Positions 40,543 through 55,076 of a stretch of 64,000 nt of DNA are shown here, piece after piece (positions within the stretch are counted from its first letter, which is position 1; each line of letters opens with the position of its first letter). Both the position numbers and the translations under genes were made by a program. The notes under the pieces were generated by a model that saw only the letters and a program-made list of their open reading frames with translations, did not search any database and had not been told where the DNA came from. Source of the stretch: Planctomycetales bacterium 10988 (GTDB lineage Bacteria; Planctomycetota; Planctomycetia; Pirellulales; Pb10988); the NCBI GenBank assembly GCA_009664345.1, contig CP043547.1, positions 4,616,709 through 4,680,708 on the forward strand, given 5' to 3'.

Positions 40543-40968
40543 TTAGGAGGGGGTGCGAACTTTTTCCATCAAGACGCGATTGCCGGATTCATTGAATTCA
40601 ATCCGAGACATAAAGCTCCGCATGAGCATGAGGCCGCGACCGCTGGGCAGTTCGAGATTCTCCGGCAACGTCGGATCGGGAACCCCTTCGGGATCGAAGC
40701 CGGTGCCTTCATCTTCAACTTCGATGCGGAGAAGATTGGGAGAAAGCTTGACGACGACATGGACCTGTTTATCGGCGTCGTGTTGATTGCCATGCTTGAT
40801 GGCGTTGACAAGGGCTTCTTCTAAGGCGAGGTGGACACTACTAATATCGTGATCCGCATAGCCGTAGACCTTTAATTGCTCCAGCACGGAATTGAGAATA
40901 TCCTTCCCGGCACCGGTACGGCTGGGAAACGTCTCCTCAATTTGCCAGACCCACTGATCTTTGGACAT
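40543..40968 (-). CDS. RsbW/SpoIIAB-like anti-sigma factor kinase (HATPase)
   Basis: From the ATG at 40968 the product has 141 residues, typical for RsbW-like proteins; the longer frame adds an unlikely leader. The GHKL ATPase motifs are visible: the N box in HLALEEALVNAIKHGNQHD (catalytic Glu and Asn), the DEGTGFDPEG G1 box, and RGLMLMRSFMSRI of the G2 region. Such proteins bind a sigma factor and also phosphorylate a STAS-domain antagonist. A STAS gene lies just upstream at 41232-41585, in the same direction, forming a likely partner-switching pair. The sigma factor target is not adjacent. Confidence 0.87.
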   Translation of the reverse strand: MSKDQWVWQIEETFPSRTGAGKDILNSVLEQLKVYGYADHDISSVHLALEEALVNAIKHGNQHDADKQVHVVVKLSPNLLRIEVEDEGTGFDPEGVPDPTLPENLELPSGRGLMLMRSFMSRIEFNESGNRVLMEKVRTPS

Positions 40969-41231
40969 CGCAAGGCGGACACACTTAATTAGAGGGAAAT
41001 GGCGAGTGGCTTCTGGGAAAACCAGAAAGTATTGCCAAGCCGGCTCCACTGTGAAACGCAACGTGGCCAGGATGGATTCTTATCTCGCCGAGGATGGGAA
41101 ATAGAAATTCTCCAAGGTCATCGATTAACTCAACAACCTTTTCCCAATCCTTTGCTGTTTTTTATAGGAACAAACGACACGATCGCCAACGGAGAGTGAA
41201 CAAGTCGCCCTCTTGGAAAATCGGGTTCAAC

Positions 41232-41585
41232 CTAAAAAGCTGCCAAGGCTGTTGCTTCGTCATCACGGATATCGAACAACTTGTTCAATTTCGTAATGGC
41301 AAAGACCTCATAGATTTCAGGTCGAATGTTAGAAAGCTTCAAGACGCCGTTATGGGCCTTTACCTTCTTGTCTAAAGTGATCAACTTACCCAAAGCACCA
41401 CTGGAAAGGAATTCGACATTGGAAAAATTGAGCAAAAGCTTCGATTTTTCCTCTTCCTCCACCAAGCGGAACAGCTCATTGCCGATCTGCTGGATATTTG
41501 ATTCATCAAGGATTTTTCGGTCGACGAAACGCACTACCGTGACTTCGCCGACATCCACTGTTTCGAGCCGTCGATTGACCGACAT
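41232..41585 (-). CDS. STAS-domain anti-sigma factor antagonist (RsbV/SpoIIAA-like)
   Basis: The 117-residue protein is a single STAS domain: EVTVVRFVDRKILDESNIQQIGNELF, LLLNFSNVEFLSSGALGKLITL with the phosphorylatable Ser of the SSGALG motif, and GVLKLSNIRPEIYEVFAITKL. When unphosphorylated it should pull the anti-sigma kinase away from its sigma factor. The kinase gene follows about 260 bases downstream. GGGAG before the ATG supports the start. Its leader holds two small hairpins, one followed by a T-rich run on the minus strand. Confidence 0.9.
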   Translation of the reverse strand: MSVNRRLETVDVGEVTVVRFVDRKILDESNIQQIGNELFRLVEEEEKSKLLLNFSNVEFLSSGALGKLITLDKKVKAHNGVLKLSNIRPEIYEVFAITKLNKLFDIRDDEATALAAF

Positions 41586-45307: not shown

Positions 45308-45472
45308 ATATGTCGCAGAAATCTTTTTCCATCCCCACCCTCGTTCATCACAAGCCTAGCAACCAAGCCCGCGTTCGCTTCTGACAAAGTGTGCTGCCTG
45401 TTTTTTTGCATATAAGTGCAGCGTAAGATAGAAACTAGAATTCTATTTCTTCATGGTCGTGGGGCTGCTGTC

Positions 45473-46072
45473 ATGAATGCTTCTGAGAATACCCTCTCTT
45501 CGATCGAGGAATGTCTAGAGCGGTTGAATCGCGGGGACAAGACCGCTTGGGAGGAGTTAAATACCCACGCCTTCGATCGTTTGATTGTGCAATGCAGGCG
45601 AATCATTCGACAGAAACTTTCCAAGCCGAATCCCTTGATCACCGAAAATGCCCTCGCGGCGGAAGTTTATCAACGGTTGACTTCCGCAATGCAGAAGAAA
45701 AACGTCCAGCCGAAGACCGCAAGGGAATTTTTTGGATTAACCGCCCGACATATCCATTGGCAAATCCTCGATATGTTGAGAAAACGAACGGAAAATCAAG
45801 CCGAGGAAGACCTGCTTTATTCCCTCACTGGCGAAAAGAATCCGTCTCAAGATGCCGAGCAGAATGAAGCTTGGCTCCGTTTCTGGACGGCGGTTGATGG
45901 CTTTTCCGAGGAAGAACGGGAGGTGTTCGAGCTATTGTGGATCAACGGGCTTTCCCAATACGAAGCGGCTCAGACCATGGGAAAAACGCGAAATCGGGTC
46001 GATTCGATTTGGCGTCGCATCAAGATTAAAATTGTTCAGTCCTGCGATGACTTGCAACCCTTTCTAGAATAG
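45473..46072 (+). CDS. ECF-type RNA polymerase sigma factor
   Basis: From the ATG at 45473 the product has 199 residues; a GTG at 45416 would add 19. Region 2 covers residues 10-95 (CLERLNRGDKTAWEELNTHAF; ALAAEVYQRLT; FFGLTARHIHWQILDMLRKR), a linker follows, and region 4 is at 125-185 (GFSEEEREVFELLWINGLSQYEAAQTMGKTRNRVDSIWRRIKIKI), with the usual helix-turn-helix. Planctomycete ECF factors of this kind often regulate or partner with Ser/Thr kinase genes, and a WD40 kinase is encoded just downstream on the opposite strand. It would recruit RNA polymerase to its own promoters. Upstream lies a sigma-54-type promoter with a palindrome. Confidence 0.88.
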   Translation: MNASENTLSSIEECLERLNRGDKTAWEELNTHAFDRLIVQCRRIIRQKLSKPNPLITENALAAEVYQRLTSAMQKKNVQPKTAREFFGLTARHIHWQILDMLRKRTENQAEEDLLYSLTGEKNPSQDAEQNEAWLRFWTAVDGFSEEEREVFELLWINGLSQYEAAQTMGKTRNRVDSIWRRIKIKIVQSCDDLQPFLE

Positions 46073-46118: not shown

Positions 46119-46607
46119 TCAGTCCCAGTCGTCCTCTTCGATCCAGCCATCTTCGTCGTTCTCCTCAATCTCTTCATTCTGACACTCGCAAAAGTCTTCG
46201 CGACCGCACGCGACCTCCCGAAGAATCCGATAGACTCGAGGATTCGGGTCATAAGGAGGATAGAGAAATTCGCCTTCGCTGCCGAACTTGAATCGCGAAA
46301 GCACGGCGGCAACTGCCGAGGAGCGGCTGATCCCTGCGTCGCAATGGATCAACAACGTGTCAATCTCATCCCAATAGTTCGAAACAAAATCAAAGATCTC
46401 ATAGGCATGCTCGTCATTAAATAATGCAAATCCTGGATAAGGCTGAGTCTGGTCGATGAACGCCAATTGAAACAAGGCAAGCCGATTGTCGTCGGGTATC
46501 GTGGCAAACTCCTCCTCCGCGTTGGCAATGCTAATACATGCCCAGGAAAAAGAAGACTCGAACTCCTCCGCATCTACCCGATTGAGAACCAGGATTTGGT
46601 TGCACAT
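46119..46607 (-). CDS. Protein tyrosine phosphatase-like (cysteine phosphatase) protein
   Basis: The 162-residue protein has the signature HCDAGISRSSA (catalytic Cys89, Arg95) of dual-specificity and tyrosine phosphatases, with DNRLALFQLAFIDQ before it in the position of the WPD region and a short acidic C-terminal tail (EENDEDGWIEEDDWD). The fold is thus of the DSP type, found in bacteria alongside Ser/Thr kinases. No signal peptide. It converges with the ECF sigma gene and lies downstream, in the same direction, of the WD40 kinase, so it could reverse that kinase's phosphorylation; this is inferred from position only. A perfect copy of the dispersed palindrome lies 18 bases before its start codon. 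Confidence 0.82.
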   Translation of the reverse strand: MCNQILVLNRVDAEEFESSFSWACISIANAEEEFATIPDDNRLALFQLAFIDQTQPYPGFALFNDEHAYEIFDFVSNYWDEIDTLLIHCDAGISRSSAVAAVLSRFKFGSEGEFLYPPYDPNPRVYRILREVACGREDFCECQNEEIEENDEDGWIEEDDWD

Positions 46608-50500: not shown

Positions 50501-51124
50501 GCTATGGGCGTATTCAATCGTGCGGCAGACGGTTACAAAATCTTGAAGCAGCCGTTGAAACGCGAGGGTGCGTTCCGCGGAATCAGCGATGGCATGAGCA
50601 GCCTCAATGGCGTCTTGAAGCCGGTCCTTCCGCGGAACGAAACGCATGACATAGAAGGGGTGCTGCTGCCGATTTCTTCCGAATTCGTAAACCGGAATCA
50701 CCCCAGGATGTTCAAGCGTGCTGGCAATTTGTGCCTCTTGAACAAGCCGCTGCTGACTTCGGCTCGCTTGTGCCTTGGAGACTTTGATCGCGACTTGACG
50801 CCCTAGTTGAAGGTCCTTTCCCAAAAAGACGACCGCTTGCCCTCCTTCCCCGATCACCTCGTTGACCTCGAAATCCTCCGTTTGGAAGAGGCTTTGGGAA
50901 GCATCCTCCGCTTCGAAGTGTTGATCAAATTTTTTAAGGCAACGAATGGCTTCGGCAGCTTCGGCGAAAAACTCCTCGGAGCCGTTCGGGCAGATTTCTT
51001 GGGGAGTTAAGTCCTTGCCTTGTTTGGCGGCGAGTTCCCAAAGCGACAAGACTTCGTCGAGCCAATCTTCGGAATTCGCTTGCCAATTCTCCGGCAGTAA
51101 CAAGGGCTGGAACTCGACCGTCAT
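47573..51124 (-). CDS. Membrane-anchored Ser/Thr kinase with WD40 repeat tail
   Basis: The 1183-residue protein starts at the ATG that overlaps the stop of the RpoC-like gene (ATGA). After a short head, the kinase domain (about 86-410) has VAIKVSK (Lys114), HRDLKPSN (213-220), DFG (233-235) and GTPAYMSPEQA, so it should be active. A membrane helix lies near 445-470, followed by a coiled coil (REKEQARQQAEFQREVAEE...) and a long stretch from about 570 to the end with WD40-type blades, for example NDRTIRLWKLTEKKQ, EAKIKIWNPRTAQN and EDKSVQLWDTGN. The WD40 part would be extracytoplasmic and could sense or bind proteins. Three copies of the dispersed motif lie inside. Confidence 0.93.
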   Translation of the reverse strand: MTVEFQPLLLPENWQANSEDWLDEVLSLWELAAKQGKDLTPQEICPNGSEEFFAEAAEAIRCLKKFDQHFEAEDASQSLFQTEDFEVNEVIGEGGQAVVFLGKDLQLGRQVAIKVSKAQASRSQQRLVQEAQIASTLEHPGVIPVYEFGRNRQQHPFYVMRFVPRKDRLQDAIEAAHAIADSAERTLAFQRLLQDFVTVCRTIEYAHSKQVIHRDLKPSNILLGEYGEVFVIDFGIAKAVSDGTTPSGNEPNSVTCPAEKNDLRTYGPVGTPAYMSPEQAGSSANIGKASDIYGLGATLYHLITGTPPFLEPTKQTANTTLGMSAYQAESDTRSQEMATESMDRIPADPLRLLDRVKAGDLSKPRSLLPTIHRPLEAICLKAMHIDPQQRYSSAEALAIEIERYLADEPITAWQEPPHERVRRWMKRHRTLVTTGSVAMMVALVALSIASILLQVANREKEQARQQAEFQREVAEEQREIAEVERDRARTAKAEETRRAEELQRLLYVTQIRSAANALNEANTSQARQLLDASRESSRGFEWKYLFRRSVLPTEMLNVDYQSPTQLSLSGDGRYLAIAGDRAINDALDLFQEKGTFTVYDLDTQKVLFEWTPKDEDQDLNFFDPAFNDPFYESAIESLTLSPDGSKAAVVNRSGGALAVWNPKTRQQLWTASSVESACFMDGGTTLLAIKPLSQGKTELIYFQAETGEQLRTQDGPQMIGRVRIDHSADGAYSAWVRSPYVEDRSPRVTLIENSTGKVQSVLATDPRLFIRQVAFDPGNQWVALSSETNTASIFQVEKGISVGSVSIQGGTIGSVCFSPQDQTLATAGNDRTIRLWKLTEKKQLLGSSLESNLKGTFRVYDNEVRSLAFANQGKELFSFGEDAAVRRWMVEEVAPPPFELPGKMIPSSDGSICQFLLSQKGKELKRWKKSFTGEPDSFPFPPQLSEPFAVDWQTKAVAGIGKNGLEVISLENQKPIFASTDITKPFCFMPDGRMIIAYDKKNPSIVGIELPSGKLAFRFQGKYEHIALDAKGTTLAASHQNHVTLWDLATFKEEIKIPTGQDSIRSLALSPDSQWLATGGKEAKIKIWNPRTAQNIAILERHRQPVTTLSFDSRGKRLLTGSEDKSVQLWDTGNWMHLLTFDDLELPIQRVQFTPDSQAIVATGANTLQTKSLVWSSSSIDPK
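48193..48209. repeat. Dispersed palindromic motif, variant in the WD40 kinase
   Basis: CAAAAATTGGTTTTTGG; outer arms kept, centre changed; encodes Lys-Pro-Ile-Phe. Confidence 0.4.
48554..48566. repeat. Dispersed palindromic motif, near copy in the WD40 kinase
   Basis: AAAAGTACCTTTT, encoding Lys-Gly-Thr-Phe on the minus strand. Confidence 0.55.
49301..49316. repeat. Dispersed palindromic motif, near copy in the WD40 kinase
   Basis: CAAAAAGTACCTTTTG, one mismatch from a perfect palindrome, encoding Lys-Val-Leu-Phe. Confidence 0.6.
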
Positions 51125-54100
51125 GGCTTCTTTCCTTTTTGAAAGGATGAAAACTGAGGGAGACCGCAAAGGAGTGGCCGCGCCAATGCCCCTCGGGCGG
51201 GGCGTGCTGAAGGGGGGCGCATACCGCATGTGCGAAGTTGGCCGACGACCCGTTCGAAGGACGTCCGTGCCATCTTTTCCCCCTGAACAAAGGTGCTTTC
51301 TCCGGGGTCCGTGATGATGACCTGTTTTGCAAGTTGTCGATTCTCTGATTGAATCGCATGGACAGAGCCTATCTCGCCTTGCGAAAGAAAAGTATCTCCA
51401 GGGTCTTCCACTTCTGCTTGGGACATCATTTTTCGAAGGGCGATTTCAAAATGAATCTCCGCGATCTTCTCCGAGTGATAATAGAGAAAGCGTAATTTCT
51501 CCAGCAAATAGTGACAAAGCCCCTGTGTTCCTAATACCTCTAGGACTTGATGGGGATCGATCTGTCCATAGTTCAGAGGGGTTCCTGCTTTCACCAGATC
51601 ACCCACGCGGTAGTGGAGCATTTGTGTCCGCGGCAGGTTCTCCACTTCGAAATATTCCTCGCTCCTCTTCGAAAAGATTTCAATCCGATAGTGCGAGCCT
51701 CGACGGTCGACATGCACGACTTCACCATCAACGGGTGACAGCTGACAGGGATGCTTCGGACGTTCTGCAAAAAGTAGTTTTTGAATTGGATCGATCCCCG
51801 TTTCTTCTTGACGGCTCGTACGGAACACTTTCGCCAAGATAGCTCCCGATAAAACTTGTTGCGAGTGAGCAACGAGGACTTGACTTCCCTCGGGTAAATA
51901 ATAGGTTTGCAGCACCTTACCTTGTTGATCTTGAAGTACGAGGCGAGGCCGATGCGGTGCTTCGTAGGGCAAAATTCTCCAAGCTCCTTGCAACGTGTCC
52001 CCATCCGGTTCGATCGTTTTACCTTCGATCAGATCAACCCACCGCACGCATCCCGCTTGCCGAGAAAGAAACAGCAACTCGTGCCAATCCCAAGAAAAGA
52101 GAGTTTGGCCTTGATAGACGAAATCCCCATCGGCAACCAACAAGAGAGCATCCCTCGGAAGGGCGATCGTTGTCTGCCGACGACCATGACGATCAAGGAG
52201 ACGGACCCTCCCATCAAGACTGATCACTCGACGCGATCCTTGAGCATCTATCACATACTCGGTGTTTTCGAACTGGACCTTCCCGGAACGGTAGGCAGTC
52301 GATGGAGGCAGCTGGAAAGAGAACGGAAGGTCGCCGCTGTAGGTCATCCTTGTCGTTTGCAGATGCGTGGAAAGCACGTTGGCGGCGATTCGACCAACGG
52401 GTTGCCCTGGCTGAATCAAGCTCCCGGTGGTGAAGTCGATCCCATAACATCGTTGGCAGATGCCCCCTTCAGCCTCACATTGAAGAGGGCTGCGAACGCG
52501 GAGTTGAGCGAGACCGAGCTTTCCCAGCAGTTCGGCCTTGGTTTCAGTGATGACTTCATTGCGATGAAGAAGGACTCGGCCAGTGAGAGGGTGAGCGACC
52601 TCTTCGCAACTGCAACGACCGACGATCTCTGGAAAGTCAGAGGAAAACGGCCAACGCCTGAAATTTTTTTTCTTTTCGATCCCGTGCGTCGTTCCACAAT
52701 CGAACATGCAAATGCGATCGTTGCGGAGAGCATCAAGCATCACCGCTCGCATCCTCTGGCGTTCTTCAGAGAGAGAAAGCCGATCGACCAAATCGTGACG
52801 CTGTTGGGATGCCCGCATCCAGTATTCATGAGGACTTAGCCCCTCCGCCCAAGATGACGTGATGGCAACTTCCCAAGGGCTGTGGTTTCTCGCCTTCACG
52901 AGCCCGAGCATTCCTTGAAGTTCCGCCACTTCTCTTTCTTTCATGAGTCCAGCTTGGGCTGTACATTCATAAAAAGTACTTTTTGATAAAGGTTTTGCCT
53001 TCAGGTCTTTCCAAAGAGATTGTTTTAGTTCGTGCCGAAGAGAATTCCAAAGCTCAAGCGACTTATGATATCGTTCCATATTCGCGATCAAGCCGCGTTC
53101 ATAGGCACGCTCGTATCGTTTTAGTTTCTTTAGCGTCGAATCGAGCAGACCTTGCTTGTCGATTTGCGGCTCCCAATCGATCATGCTTAAGCTGAGCCCC
53201 GATCGGCTCAACACCTCCGTTGCGAATGGTTGAAGCTCGAAGATCGTTTGCATGGCAACCCCGGCGGCGAGTTCCGCGAAGAGAAGCGGTAGCAATGTCT
53301 GCCAACCTCTTAACGTCATCGTGTCATTGATAAAAGGGGCACCCGGAGTAAGGTGGGAATTGAACAGCACTCTGCCGACCGTGGTGGTGAGTCGATGCGG
53401 TACCTTTTGAATCTTCCAGACGTTGCGGCTTGGCTCGTAGCGTGCCTCTTGATCCACATTCAAGATTTCAATCGGGGTTGTCCGCTGCACTGCCCCATGT
53501 TGATAAGCGGAGAGAACTTCTTCCGGATTGGCAAAACAAGGGAATTTGGAATCTTGATGGATGTGATCTTCCACCTGCGTTGCTAGGAAACAACCGAGGA
53601 TCAATTCATCGGAGAGCCGCCAATGGAACTCGCCGTTCTCCAGCTTCCGACCTGTGAGATTCAAGGGCATTTGCAAAACATTCGAGGCGGAGGACTTCCA
53701 GCGAAGAACGATTTGAATCTCGCTCGATGGTTCTGTGCGGGTCAGTCTCGAATAAACTTCCGGCGATACCGAGCAGGCAGCATGTTCAACCAAAGCAGGT
53801 TCGAAGGCCACCCATTGCGCAGTAGAGTTTTCCGGGCATTGATGAATGAGAACCTCGCAATCCAAAAAGAGCTTTTTGACGGTTGCCATCATCTCCTGCG
53901 AATCGATCTCCCACGAAGAGAGACACGTCTCTGGATCGTGCCCGTTTTCTTCAAGCCACTCTTTGATAAATGGAAGAAGCATGGGTAGAGACGATTCGGT
54001 CAAAGGCAATCCCCACTGAGACGGAGACAGGGTGGGACATGGAATCAAAGCCAACGCCGACATTCGAGAGGAGTTCGGTATTTGTAGCTTCGTACTGAAT

Positions 54101-54189
54101 GCGCGAAGGACGCGGGGAAGGTTCCTCGCTATCTTGGCCGGGTACTTCGAAGCTTGATGGGGGTGACAAGACGCCTCTACTTTTTCCAT
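51121..54189 (-). CDS. Degenerate RNA polymerase beta' (RpoC)-like paralogue, probably non-catalytic
   Basis: The 1022-residue protein is collinear with the C-terminal part of bacterial beta': DELILGCFLATQ (195-204), TTTVGRVLFN (268-277), YERGLIANMERYHKSLELW (363-381), the FDCGTTHGI block (497-504), LTGRVLLHRNEVIT, SPLQCEAEGGICQRCYGIDF (567-586), and two DPG-type blocks near 929 and 961. All four cysteines of zinc site 2 are kept (498, 571, 578, 581; spacing 73, 7, 3). The clamp, zinc site 1 and NADFDGD active-site motif have no counterpart; residues 1-190 are unrelated. The trigger-loop catalytic residues are changed (QTTRMTYSGD where beta' has LTMRTFHIGG) and the bridge helix is unrecognisable. 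It is coupled by ATGA to the WD40 kinase gene. GAGG precedes the start. Confidence 0.85.
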   Translation of the reverse strand: MEKVEASCHPHQASKYPAKIARNLPRVLRAFSTKLQIPNSSRMSALALIPCPTLSPSQWGLPLTESSLPMLLPFIKEWLEENGHDPETCLSSWEIDSQEMMATVKKLFLDCEVLIHQCPENSTAQWVAFEPALVEHAACSVSPEVYSRLTRTEPSSEIQIVLRWKSSASNVLQMPLNLTGRKLENGEFHWRLSDELILGCFLATQVEDHIHQDSKFPCFANPEEVLSAYQHGAVQRTTPIEILNVDQEARYEPSRNVWKIQKVPHRLTTTVGRVLFNSHLTPGAPFINDTMTLRGWQTLLPLLFAELAAGVAMQTIFELQPFATEVLSRSGLSLSMIDWEPQIDKQGLLDSTLKKLKRYERAYERGLIANMERYHKSLELWNSLRHELKQSLWKDLKAKPLSKSTFYECTAQAGLMKEREVAELQGMLGLVKARNHSPWEVAITSSWAEGLSPHEYWMRASQQRHDLVDRLSLSEERQRMRAVMLDALRNDRICMFDCGTTHGIEKKKNFRRWPFSSDFPEIVGRCSCEEVAHPLTGRVLLHRNEVITETKAELLGKLGLAQLRVRSPLQCEAEGGICQRCYGIDFTTGSLIQPGQPVGRIAANVLSTHLQTTRMTYSGDLPFSFQLPPSTAYRSGKVQFENTEYVIDAQGSRRVISLDGRVRLLDRHGRRQTTIALPRDALLLVADGDFVYQGQTLFSWDWHELLFLSRQAGCVRWVDLIEGKTIEPDGDTLQGAWRILPYEAPHRPRLVLQDQQGKVLQTYYLPEGSQVLVAHSQQVLSGAILAKVFRTSRQEETGIDPIQKLLFAERPKHPCQLSPVDGEVVHVDRRGSHYRIEIFSKRSEEYFEVENLPRTQMLHYRVGDLVKAGTPLNYGQIDPHQVLEVLGTQGLCHYLLEKLRFLYYHSEKIAEIHFEIALRKMMSQAEVEDPGDTFLSQGEIGSVHAIQSENRQLAKQVIITDPGESTFVQGEKMARTSFERVVGQLRTCGMRPPSARPARGALARPLLCGLPQFSSFQKGKKP
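51768..51783. repeat. Dispersed palindromic motif in the RpoC-like gene
   Basis: CAAAAAGTAGTTTTTG, one base from symmetric; encodes Lys-Leu-Leu-Phe. Confidence 0.6.
52971..52984. repeat. Dispersed palindromic motif, perfect copy in the RpoC-like gene
   Basis: AAAAAGTACTTTTT, perfect palindrome in coding sequence; encodes Lys-Ser-Thr-Phe at residues 403-406. Confidence 0.75.
53863..53878. repeat. Dispersed palindromic motif, variant in the RpoC-like gene
   Basis: CAAAAAGAGCTTTTTG, symmetric except for one centre base pair; read in a different frame from the others (Lys-Lys-Leu-Phe-Leu). Confidence 0.5.
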
Positions 54190-54275: not shown

Positions 54276-54695
54276 CTACCGACGTTGAGGGAGCAATCGG
54301 ATGCTGCCGGCACCTGAAAGAATCAGAAACAGGAAAACTACCACGAGTCGTAGATTTCCTCCCTCGAACAAGAAGTCCCAAACAGCATCAAATAACTCTT
54401 GTGTAGCGAAAGCGATTCGCGAGAACGCCCCTTCTGGGACTTTTTGCGAAGTTTCCGAAGGAGTGAATGTTTGCAACTGTTCAAAAGTACTTTTTACTTT
54501 TGCCCCTTCCAACGCCAGCATTTCTATCGCTTCTAATTGCTGAGTACCCTGCGGTGAATCTTTCTTCGGCAAGGCCTCGTAAGCAAAGCTCCCTGGAGCA
54601 GGTTCGTAGGTTTCTTCCGCCGCCGCTCCCATCATTTGCAAGGCTGTAGCAAGAAAGAATAACACAAGCAAACTACAGTAGATAAAAGATCGCAT
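54276..54695 (-). CDS. Small membrane protein upstream of the RpoC-like gene
   Basis: From ATG 54695 (GGGAGGG 8 bases upstream) the product has 139 residues. It has a signal peptide (residues 1-25, RSFIYCSLLVLFFLATALQMMGAAA), an acidic-to-neutral helical middle (TQQLEAIEMLALEGAKVKSTFEQLQTF) and one C-terminal membrane helix (LRLVVVFLFLILSGAGSI) ending in basic RLLPQRR, so most of it lies outside the cytoplasm. No family is recognised. It sits 86 bases before the RpoC-like gene on the same strand and may be the first gene of that operon. The dispersed motif falls in its middle. Confidence 0.72.
   Translation of the reverse strand: MRSFIYCSLLVLFFLATALQMMGAAAEETYEPAPGSFAYEALPKKDSPQGTQQLEAIEMLALEGAKVKSTFEQLQTFTPSETSQKVPEGAFSRIAFATQELFDAVWDFLFEGGNLRLVVVFLFLILSGAGSIRLLPQRR
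54482..54495. repeat. Dispersed palindromic motif in the small membrane protein gene
   Basis: CAAAAGTACTTTTT; encodes Lys-Ser-Thr-Phe on the minus strand, the same tetrapeptide as in batC and the RpoC-like gene. Confidence 0.65.
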
Positions 54696-55076
54696 TCGGC
54701 CACCCTCCCCGATTAGAGCCAATCATAAGTTCTCAAACTATCTATAGATCGAGGAGAATTCGCTCTTGGGGAATTTTTTCTGCGATTTTCCCGGCTTCCC
54801 GGCAGGTTCCCGCAATTCGGCTAGGTGCCGAGAGAGGAAAATACCCCGAGGATTTAACCTATCTCAATTTGGACTTGCTCTCTTTTCCCAGAAGCGGTAA
54901 GTTGCCAGCCCTTCAATCTTAGAGCCTGTGGACGAAGCCGGATTATCTCAGATGCTTGAAGATCGTGACGCTCGGGTGGTATTCGTCCATCAATCATTAC
55001 GTTTTCATTTCTATCTTGCTGTAGATGTCAGGATGTCGAAAGACGAACATTCCTGAACGTGAAGGAGTCGAATCCG
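54696..55076. other. Divergent promoter region of the RpoC-like operon and a secreted protein gene
   Basis: No gene is supported. The region separates the minus-strand small-membrane-protein/RpoC-like/kinase unit from the plus-strand gene at 55077 and should contain both promoters; I cannot assign boxes with confidence. Confidence 0.4.

Follow-up and report, generated by a model that had tools for sequence, protein, structure and literature searches.

A degenerate paralogue of the RNA polymerase beta' subunit (RpoC) is encoded in the window, by which we mean the whole stretch of DNA analysed here (64,000 nucleotides of contig CP043547.1 from Planctomycetales bacterium 10988, assembly GCA_009664345.1, positions 4,616,709 to 4,680,708). 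It stands beside an intact rpoC in the same genome, and we consider it very probable that the protein is a beta' paralogue which is catalytically dead and on which selection acted. To our knowledge, few proteins are as highly conserved as bacterial beta', and its gene is as a rule present once per genome. The features on which the argument rests are collected in Table 1.

Table 1 Features of the window discussed in the text (positions are those of the whole stretch).
Feature	Position	Strand	Remarks
Degenerate beta' paralogue	51121..54189	minus	1022 aa (P0001); aligned to E. coli beta' ~350-1310
Zinc site 2: Cys498, Cys571, Cys578, Cys581	52447..52698	minus	spacings 73/7/3
Degenerate metal-binding loop, residues 143-162	53704..53763	minus	E. 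coli D460/D462/D464 replaced by T152/P154/S156
WD40-repeat Ser/Thr kinase; residues 430-457 form one transmembrane-like segment	47573..51124	minus	Pkinase 3.8e-41
Possible further member: small protein, weak dual-specificity-phosphatase match	46119..46607	minus	DSPc 4.3e-4, below cut-off
Possible further member: 148-aa protein with membrane-like segments, next upstream	54276..54722	minus	no Pfam match at 0.01

Homology of the paralogue to beta'

The open reading frame contains no internal stop in 1022 codons; base shuffles of the gene (n=500) carry 44.7 stops on average, with a minimum of 28. The coding signal is positive in the gene's own frame and negative in the five other frames, and at 0.087 bits per codon it is the weakest among eight genes compared, the other seven of which (0.225-0.488 bits per codon) doubled as the training set.

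The protein matches the RpoC profile TIGR02386 with an E-value of 8.7e-85 (285.4 bits against a cut-off of 963.5, best stretch residues 50-952) and beta' chains of the PDB with a phmmer E-value of 8e-76 (residues 47-1011 aligned), which bears out the truncated RpoC paralogue that had been proposed in a sequence-only reading of this DNA. Matches to single Pfam domains are all below cut-off (Rpb1_5 2.6e-5, RPOC_hybrid 1.5e-4, Rpb1_3 0.017). Identity to RpoC is 25-31%, and the closest proteins are the RpoCs of the same phylum (27-31% identity, at most 389 bits). Judged from these comparisons, the paralogue is homologous to beta' by common descent, far above chance.

Alignments with 59 RpoC proteins of the same phylum and with E. 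coli RpoC show that the match to beta' begins weakly at switch 2, takes hold at the double-psi barrel and runs almost as far as the C terminus, and that the C-terminal end of the paralogue is truncated as well. Domain names and E. coli beta' landmarks are used here as we presume them to be, the residues themselves having been read off the alignments. The collinearity with beta' thus holds, over about 965 residues and not the roughly 830 first claimed, and the blocks TTTVGRVLFN, YERGLIANMERY and GICQRCYG are all found in the translated frame, as the same reading had it. A structure prediction with AlphaFold2 on a two-row alignment (the paralogue and the copy in L098) was uninformative, with a mean pLDDT of 29.

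Loss of the catalytic parts and retention of the scaffold

According to the alignment, the clamp, zinc site 1, the coiled coil and the rudder are absent from the paralogue. The NADFDGD metal motif is not kept, and the metal-binding loop, with its three aspartates replaced, retains 2 of 17 rpoC-invariant columns. The bridge helix can be aligned yet is degenerate (7/34 invariants retained), as are the two halves of the trigger loop (7/19 and 2/12), in which the position of His936 reads T, and region 701-735 retains none of its 12 invariants. A non-catalytic protein, as previously claimed, is what the T/P/S at the metal positions, the metal loop and the bridge helix all point to; among the parts listed as missing, the clamp, zinc site 1, NADFDGD and the trigger-loop His are indeed gone, and the bridge helix is present in degenerate form. 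All four cysteines of zinc site 2 were found at the spacings claimed for them, and we take their E. coli counterparts to be C814, C888, C895 and C898. Retention is high at zinc site 2 (11/15), in SI3 (10/11) and in region 516-600 (9/13).

An invariant column was defined as one with the same residue in at least 95% of 59 RpoC rows, which are mutually non-independent. These rows are those of 82 rpoC loci that have more than 1300 aa and the letters NADFDGD; the 23 loci dropped were mostly fragments, with one full-length gene reading NAEIDGD (L006). The invariance of NADFDGD is therefore partly by choice, since the rows were picked for it. Over the whole span the paralogue retains 137 of 386 covered invariant columns (143 of 393 in an earlier alignment). 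Retention amounts to 20/113 in the catalytic regions, which we picked after the anatomy of E. coli beta', versus 102/242 in the remaining columns (Fisher p 4e-6); in an earlier alignment, made with four copies, the figures were 21/104 versus 102/242 (p 8e-5). A block test free of predefined regions likewise finds the retention clustered (p 0.001). Neutral decay would not prefer scaffold columns, and this unevenness thus indicates, at the level of sequence, that the scaffold was under selection once catalysis had gone, not necessarily that it is so today.

The normal polymerase of the host

The genome consists of one contig of 6.65 Mb and contains two matches to the paralogue, namely itself and a full-length rpoC. 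The latter, at 1509 aa, is complete with NADFDGD and TFHIGG and sits behind rpoB, for which the genome holds a single match. Within the window, an N-terminal beta' remnant (clamp, zinc site 1, coiled coil) was sought and not found. The paralogue is not half of a split enzyme, because an intact rpoC and one rpoB are present in the same genome, and we rejected on these grounds a split beta' whose other half would be separate in a genome devoid of full-length rpoC. Neither is it a recent duplicate of the genome's own rpoC: the two are 28% identical and, placed alone in a tree, the paralogue does not fall beside L002.

Degenerate copies in other Planctomycetota

The paralogue is no orphan. The search covered 895 genomes of the same phylum (G000-G894), drawn at the levels of order, class and phylum and from one family. 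Five of them carry a degenerate copy in addition to rpoC, namely the genome of the window (G000) and four further ones, G350, G207, G199 and G405. A profile of the first four copies, which favours those four, scores them at 1347-1532 bits, the G405 copy at 589 and rpoC at 862 or less. Genomes without any match, rpoC included, numbered 1/57, 19/396, 14/241, 2/248 and 5/199 by search. The candidates scored per genome were the best two in the 396-genome search, three in those of 241 and 248 genomes and four in that of 199, and with so few candidates another copy, if strongly diverged, may have escaped the search.

A recheck of the sequences at the level of loci singled out the G207 copy (L057) as the sole degenerate one among 94 rpoC-like frames, leaving out some short second pieces without a locus and, among genomes with two or more matches, G597 (248-genome search), G711, G721, G732, G772, G784, G792, G800, G801, G805, G822 and G824. 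This copy is 39% identical to the rpoC of the window genome and the other rechecked frames at least 45%; apart from it, the frames long enough to span the metal loop all have that loop.

Outside cellular chromosomes, the plasmid search returned nothing beyond ordinary RpoC in the best 20 of 66 records. The best phage record listed reached 256 bits, with 23-27% identity in 20 of 29 records, and viral contigs gave more distant matches only, none usable to deepen the alignment for fold prediction. A phage origin was rejected on the comparison of this best listed record with the rpoC of the same phylum, at up to 389 bits in a different search.

Comparison of the five copies

The copies of G000, G350, G207, G199 and G405 are 1022, 1247, 1126, 901 and 1431 aa long, respectively, all without internal stops, the TAG counted in the G199 profile match being that copy's own end. 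The set of four zinc-2 cysteines is complete in 5/5 copies and the triad of metal aspartates in 0/5; the three positions read T/P/S in G000, S/N/N in G350, E/D/D in G207, D/S/Q in G199 and E/H/E in G405. The G405 copy is nearly full length (621 bits with TIGR02386), with NADFDGD changed to GIEFHGE, the trigger-loop His to R, and zinc site 1 lost, with no cysteine at any of its four positions. The N-terminal half of the G350 copy is worn and includes a coiled-coil-like stretch. The G207 copy starts nearly where the window copy does and keeps the trigger-loop His. The full-length rpoC L006 (G029), the sole match in its genome, reads NAEIDGD, and catalytic death is for this reason least certain for G207.

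The preference for non-catalytic columns recurs in each of the four further copies. Retention in catalytic versus other invariant columns is 24/110 versus 111/244 in G350 (Fisher p 2e-5), 45/110 versus 161/248 in G207 (p 3e-5), 16/99 versus 119/243 in G199 (p 7e-9) and 29/110 versus 150/248 in G405 (p 3e-9), and the region-free block test gives p 0.011, 0.004, 1e-4 and 2e-4 in the same order.

Whether the copies form one family or several was approached by trees and by shared residues. A 38-row tree joins four copies with an SH-aLRT support of 97 on saturated branches of 6.5-10 changes per column; with five copies the support of the joint branch is 35, again on saturated branches. When placed singly, none of the copies of G000, G350, G207 and G405 groups with the rpoC of its own genome, with weak support everywhere; the G199 rpoC was not among the rows of this placement tree. 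The rpoC of G199 is divided over two contigs. New residues shared by two copies were counted in the columns where both had left the rpoC residue. They exceed expectation for G000-G350 (31 versus 16.0, sd 3.4), G350-G405 (31 versus 16.2, sd 3.4), G350-G207 (22 versus 13.2, sd 2.7) and G350-G199 (22 versus 13.2, sd 3.2), and the six pairs without G350 give z of 0.1 to 1.7. These counts support a shared history around G350, clearest with G000 and G405, and the five copies may have been caught at different points in one and the same erosion of a full-length gene.

Neighbouring genes

The stop codon of the paralogue (TGA) and the start codon of the kinase-WD40 gene (ATG) overlap as ATGA, and AAAAAGGAAAG, which resembles a ribosome-binding site, lies just upstream; this arrangement suggests that the two genes are translationally coupled. 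The kinase contains the catalytic motifs HRDLKP and DFG of Hanks-type enzymes.

Genes for kinase-WD40, kinase or nSTAND1-WD40 proteins lie near 4/5 copies. The copies of G350 and G207 are each preceded by a gene for a small membrane protein, along with one for an nSTAND1-WD40 protein (9e-87) in G350 and, in G207, genes for a kinase-WD40 protein and for a protein that matches TPR and protease models weakly. In G405, a kinase 38% identical to that of the window lies about 5.7 kb from the copy on the opposite strand, a protein with weak WD40 matches adjoins the copy, also on the opposite strand, and a relative of the product of 46119-46607 (57.6% identical) is encoded two genes upstream on the same strand. 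The G199 copy is flanked on one side by pyrD and kdp genes, and about 1 kb beyond its other side the contig ends. This neighbour link was noticed after the fact, neighbours having been examined in copy-bearing genomes, and as there are 61-114 Pkinase matches per genome in the four genomes counted, the link of degenerate copies to kinase/WD40 genes is, the overlap in the window apart, suggestive.

Discussion

The evidence for a dead beta' paralogue formerly under selection has to be weighed against other explanations of the same gene. It could be a pseudogene in decay: an rpoC duplicated long ago that serves no purpose now and whose frame is still open by chance. Its rarity and patchy occurrence (5/895 genomes) are also expected of genes on their way out, and the differing lengths of the copies, their very long branches and a coding signal weak relative to the neighbours fit such a fate; however, no stop has appeared in frames of 901 to 1431 codons (1022 in the window copy, 1247 in G350, 1126 in G207), the paralogue overlaps the kinase gene, and all five copies keep the zinc cysteines. 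Retention is concentrated outside the catalytic parts, which makes a pseudogene quite unlikely. An enzyme of a non-canonical kind, in which a rebuilt active site makes or cuts nucleic acid, alone or with beta, would recall the remodelled beta'-like phage polymerases that are described as active in the portions of the literature available to us. The E/D/D and trigger-loop His of the G207 copy would suit it, and the NAEIDGD of L006 hints that a D-to-E change at the first position may be tolerated. Yet the window copy lacks all three aspartates and retains 2/17, 7/34, 0/12 and 7/19 invariants in its catalytic regions, and the genome has one rpoB match only, so that we regard this reading as very improbable. 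A split but active beta' with its N-terminal half encoded elsewhere, of which the reference system is presumably the cyanobacterial gamma + beta'' type, would explain why the paralogue starts about where the N-terminal domains end; with a complete NADFDGD rpoC behind rpoB, a C-terminal piece that is itself catalytically wrecked and no N-terminal fragment found in the window, it is hardly tenable.

The remaining alternative is a decoy, that is, an imitation of the host RNA polymerase offered to phage takeover proteins, with the kinase, or the nSTAND protein of G350, as the alarm. Preservation of the scaffold while catalysis was lost would be expected of such a bait, the neighbours include nSTAND1-WD40 and kinase-WD40 genes, and phages bind host RNA polymerase, with some defence systems responding to such interference, as far as the accessible text of PMC12409349 goes. 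On the other side, an identity to RpoC of 25-31% implies that many binding sites for phage proteins would be gone, and PADLOC gives no match for the paralogue; its matches for the kinases spread over many PD-T4-6 and other kinase models, and for the nSTAND protein they are HEAT-ARM_XIII and, weakly, PDC-S60. We regard the decoy as unlikely. Stated more broadly, a dead beta' imitation wired to a transmembrane kinase or to a STAND ATPase-WD40 protein, and either titrating polymerase parts or factors or baiting phage proteins, has a little less than an even chance of being right.

The reading that we prefer, a pseudo-subunit serving as a binding platform under a membrane kinase, is taken as a whole evenly poised between right and wrong. 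In this scenario, a beta' paralogue would have lost its clamp and let its catalytic centre degenerate while zinc site 2, SI3/hybrid and much of the scaffold stayed. The transmembrane kinase-WD40 protein would sense something outside the cell and control the cytosolic pseudo-subunit, presumably by acting on it as a kinase. The pseudo-subunit would then act by binding, either to beta, to assembly intermediates or to factors that recognise the outer face of beta' (the rim of the secondary channel), with an output on transcription; its folding, partners and output are all postulated. This kinase-linked mechanism is a tentative proposal, about which doubt outweighs confidence. Binding to beta is possible. 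As regards sigma factors, which the earlier reading suggested as partners, the customary route finds no support, since the window copy has no clamp coiled coil, and binding of omega, also suggested, is doubtful because the C-terminal end, where we take the omega-binding site of beta' to lie, is truncated.

Compared with RpoC (TIGR02386), the paralogue is alike in its collinearity, which starts at the double-psi barrel and stops just short of the C terminus, and in keeping zinc site 2, and unlike in scoring 285 bits against a cut-off of 963.5, in lacking the clamp and zinc site 1, in its degenerate metal aspartates, bridge helix and trigger loop, and in being a second gene beside an intact rpoC. 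Rather than an RpoC, it is thus best called a pseudoenzyme paralogue of one. Second copies of core-subunit genes are also found among the rpoB paralogues of actinomycetes (PMC5431353) and the two rpoA genes of Francisella (PMC3294249), where, in the excerpts available from both articles, they give two polymerase forms or non-identical alpha subunits; unlike these, the window copy has no catalysis and no clamp. The multi-subunit RNA polymerases of phages such as phiKZ, as presented in the accessible part of PMC4666361, resemble it in being remote and rearranged relatives of beta', but the paralogue is nearer to bacterial beta' than to them, as the score of the best listed phage record shows. 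In 5.39 million open-access full texts searched by phrase matching, no family of degenerate beta' paralogues is described among the matches listed, which to that extent agrees with the original claim of novelty. A paralogue that keeps the scaffold and is free of catalysis would make RNA polymerase itself the source of a pseudoenzyme, a case for which the literature matches listed offer no precedent, and, if our reading is true, the use of a mimic of a polymerase subunit that answers to a membrane sensor, for transcription control or for virus detection, becomes testable.

The window kinase, with its order of kinase, one membrane span and WD40 repeats, has the layout of the transmembrane Ser/Thr kinases with WD40 known from Planctomycetota (PMC11032199). 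For these, the sections of that article available to us report a kinase domain predicted to be cytoplasmic and WD40 arrays that are mostly periplasmic, and mention no beta'-derived partner, unlike the situation in the window. A thioredoxin-like protein (weak match) is also encoded behind the window kinase on the same strand.

Genes around the degenerate copies

About 1.5 kb past the end of the kinase-WD40 gene, which encodes the transmembrane Ser/Thr kinase overlapping the paralogue gene of the window, an ECF-type sigma factor gene is found on the opposite strand. The window also holds a two-gene pair; inspected by eye, one member looks like an anti-sigma ATPase, the other like a STAS anti-anti-sigma protein. 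In genome G405, an ADP-ribosylglycohydrolase gene is located between a kinase gene and the degenerate copy. The C-terminal ~150 aa of the G207 paralogue gave no Pfam match at 0.1.

Features in the window and at the G405 (L265) and G207 (L067) paralogue loci
Feature	Location	Strand	Evidence
ECF-type sigma factor	window 45416-46072	+	Sigma70_ECF 3.4e-10
Two-gene pair	window 40543-41061 and 41232-41585	-	similarity by eye
ADP-ribosylglycohydrolase	L265 3663-4775	+	3.7e-55
C-terminal part of paralogue	L067 12120-12578

Extended and possibly variant or doubled rpoC genes

The full-length rpoC L006, sole match within genome G029, carries as assembled NAEIDGD in place of the catalytic NADFDGD motif, which may be either a true variant or an assembly error. 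In G353, near-equal rpoC frames (L050 and L058) lie on contigs of similar length (C97 and C244), and are perhaps an assembly duplicate. A long frame of L264 (G756, contig C506) contains GADFDGD and matches the paralogue profile in a weak and scattered manner; it is perhaps a phage-type polymerase.

Three GIGP repeats, resembling helix-hairpin-helix motifs, occur in the C-terminal extension of the ordinary rpoC of G350 (L056/L068) and G308 (L038). Frames of rpoC with 1700-1850 aa were found in further genomes of the G350/G308 family, and may represent further cases of this extension.
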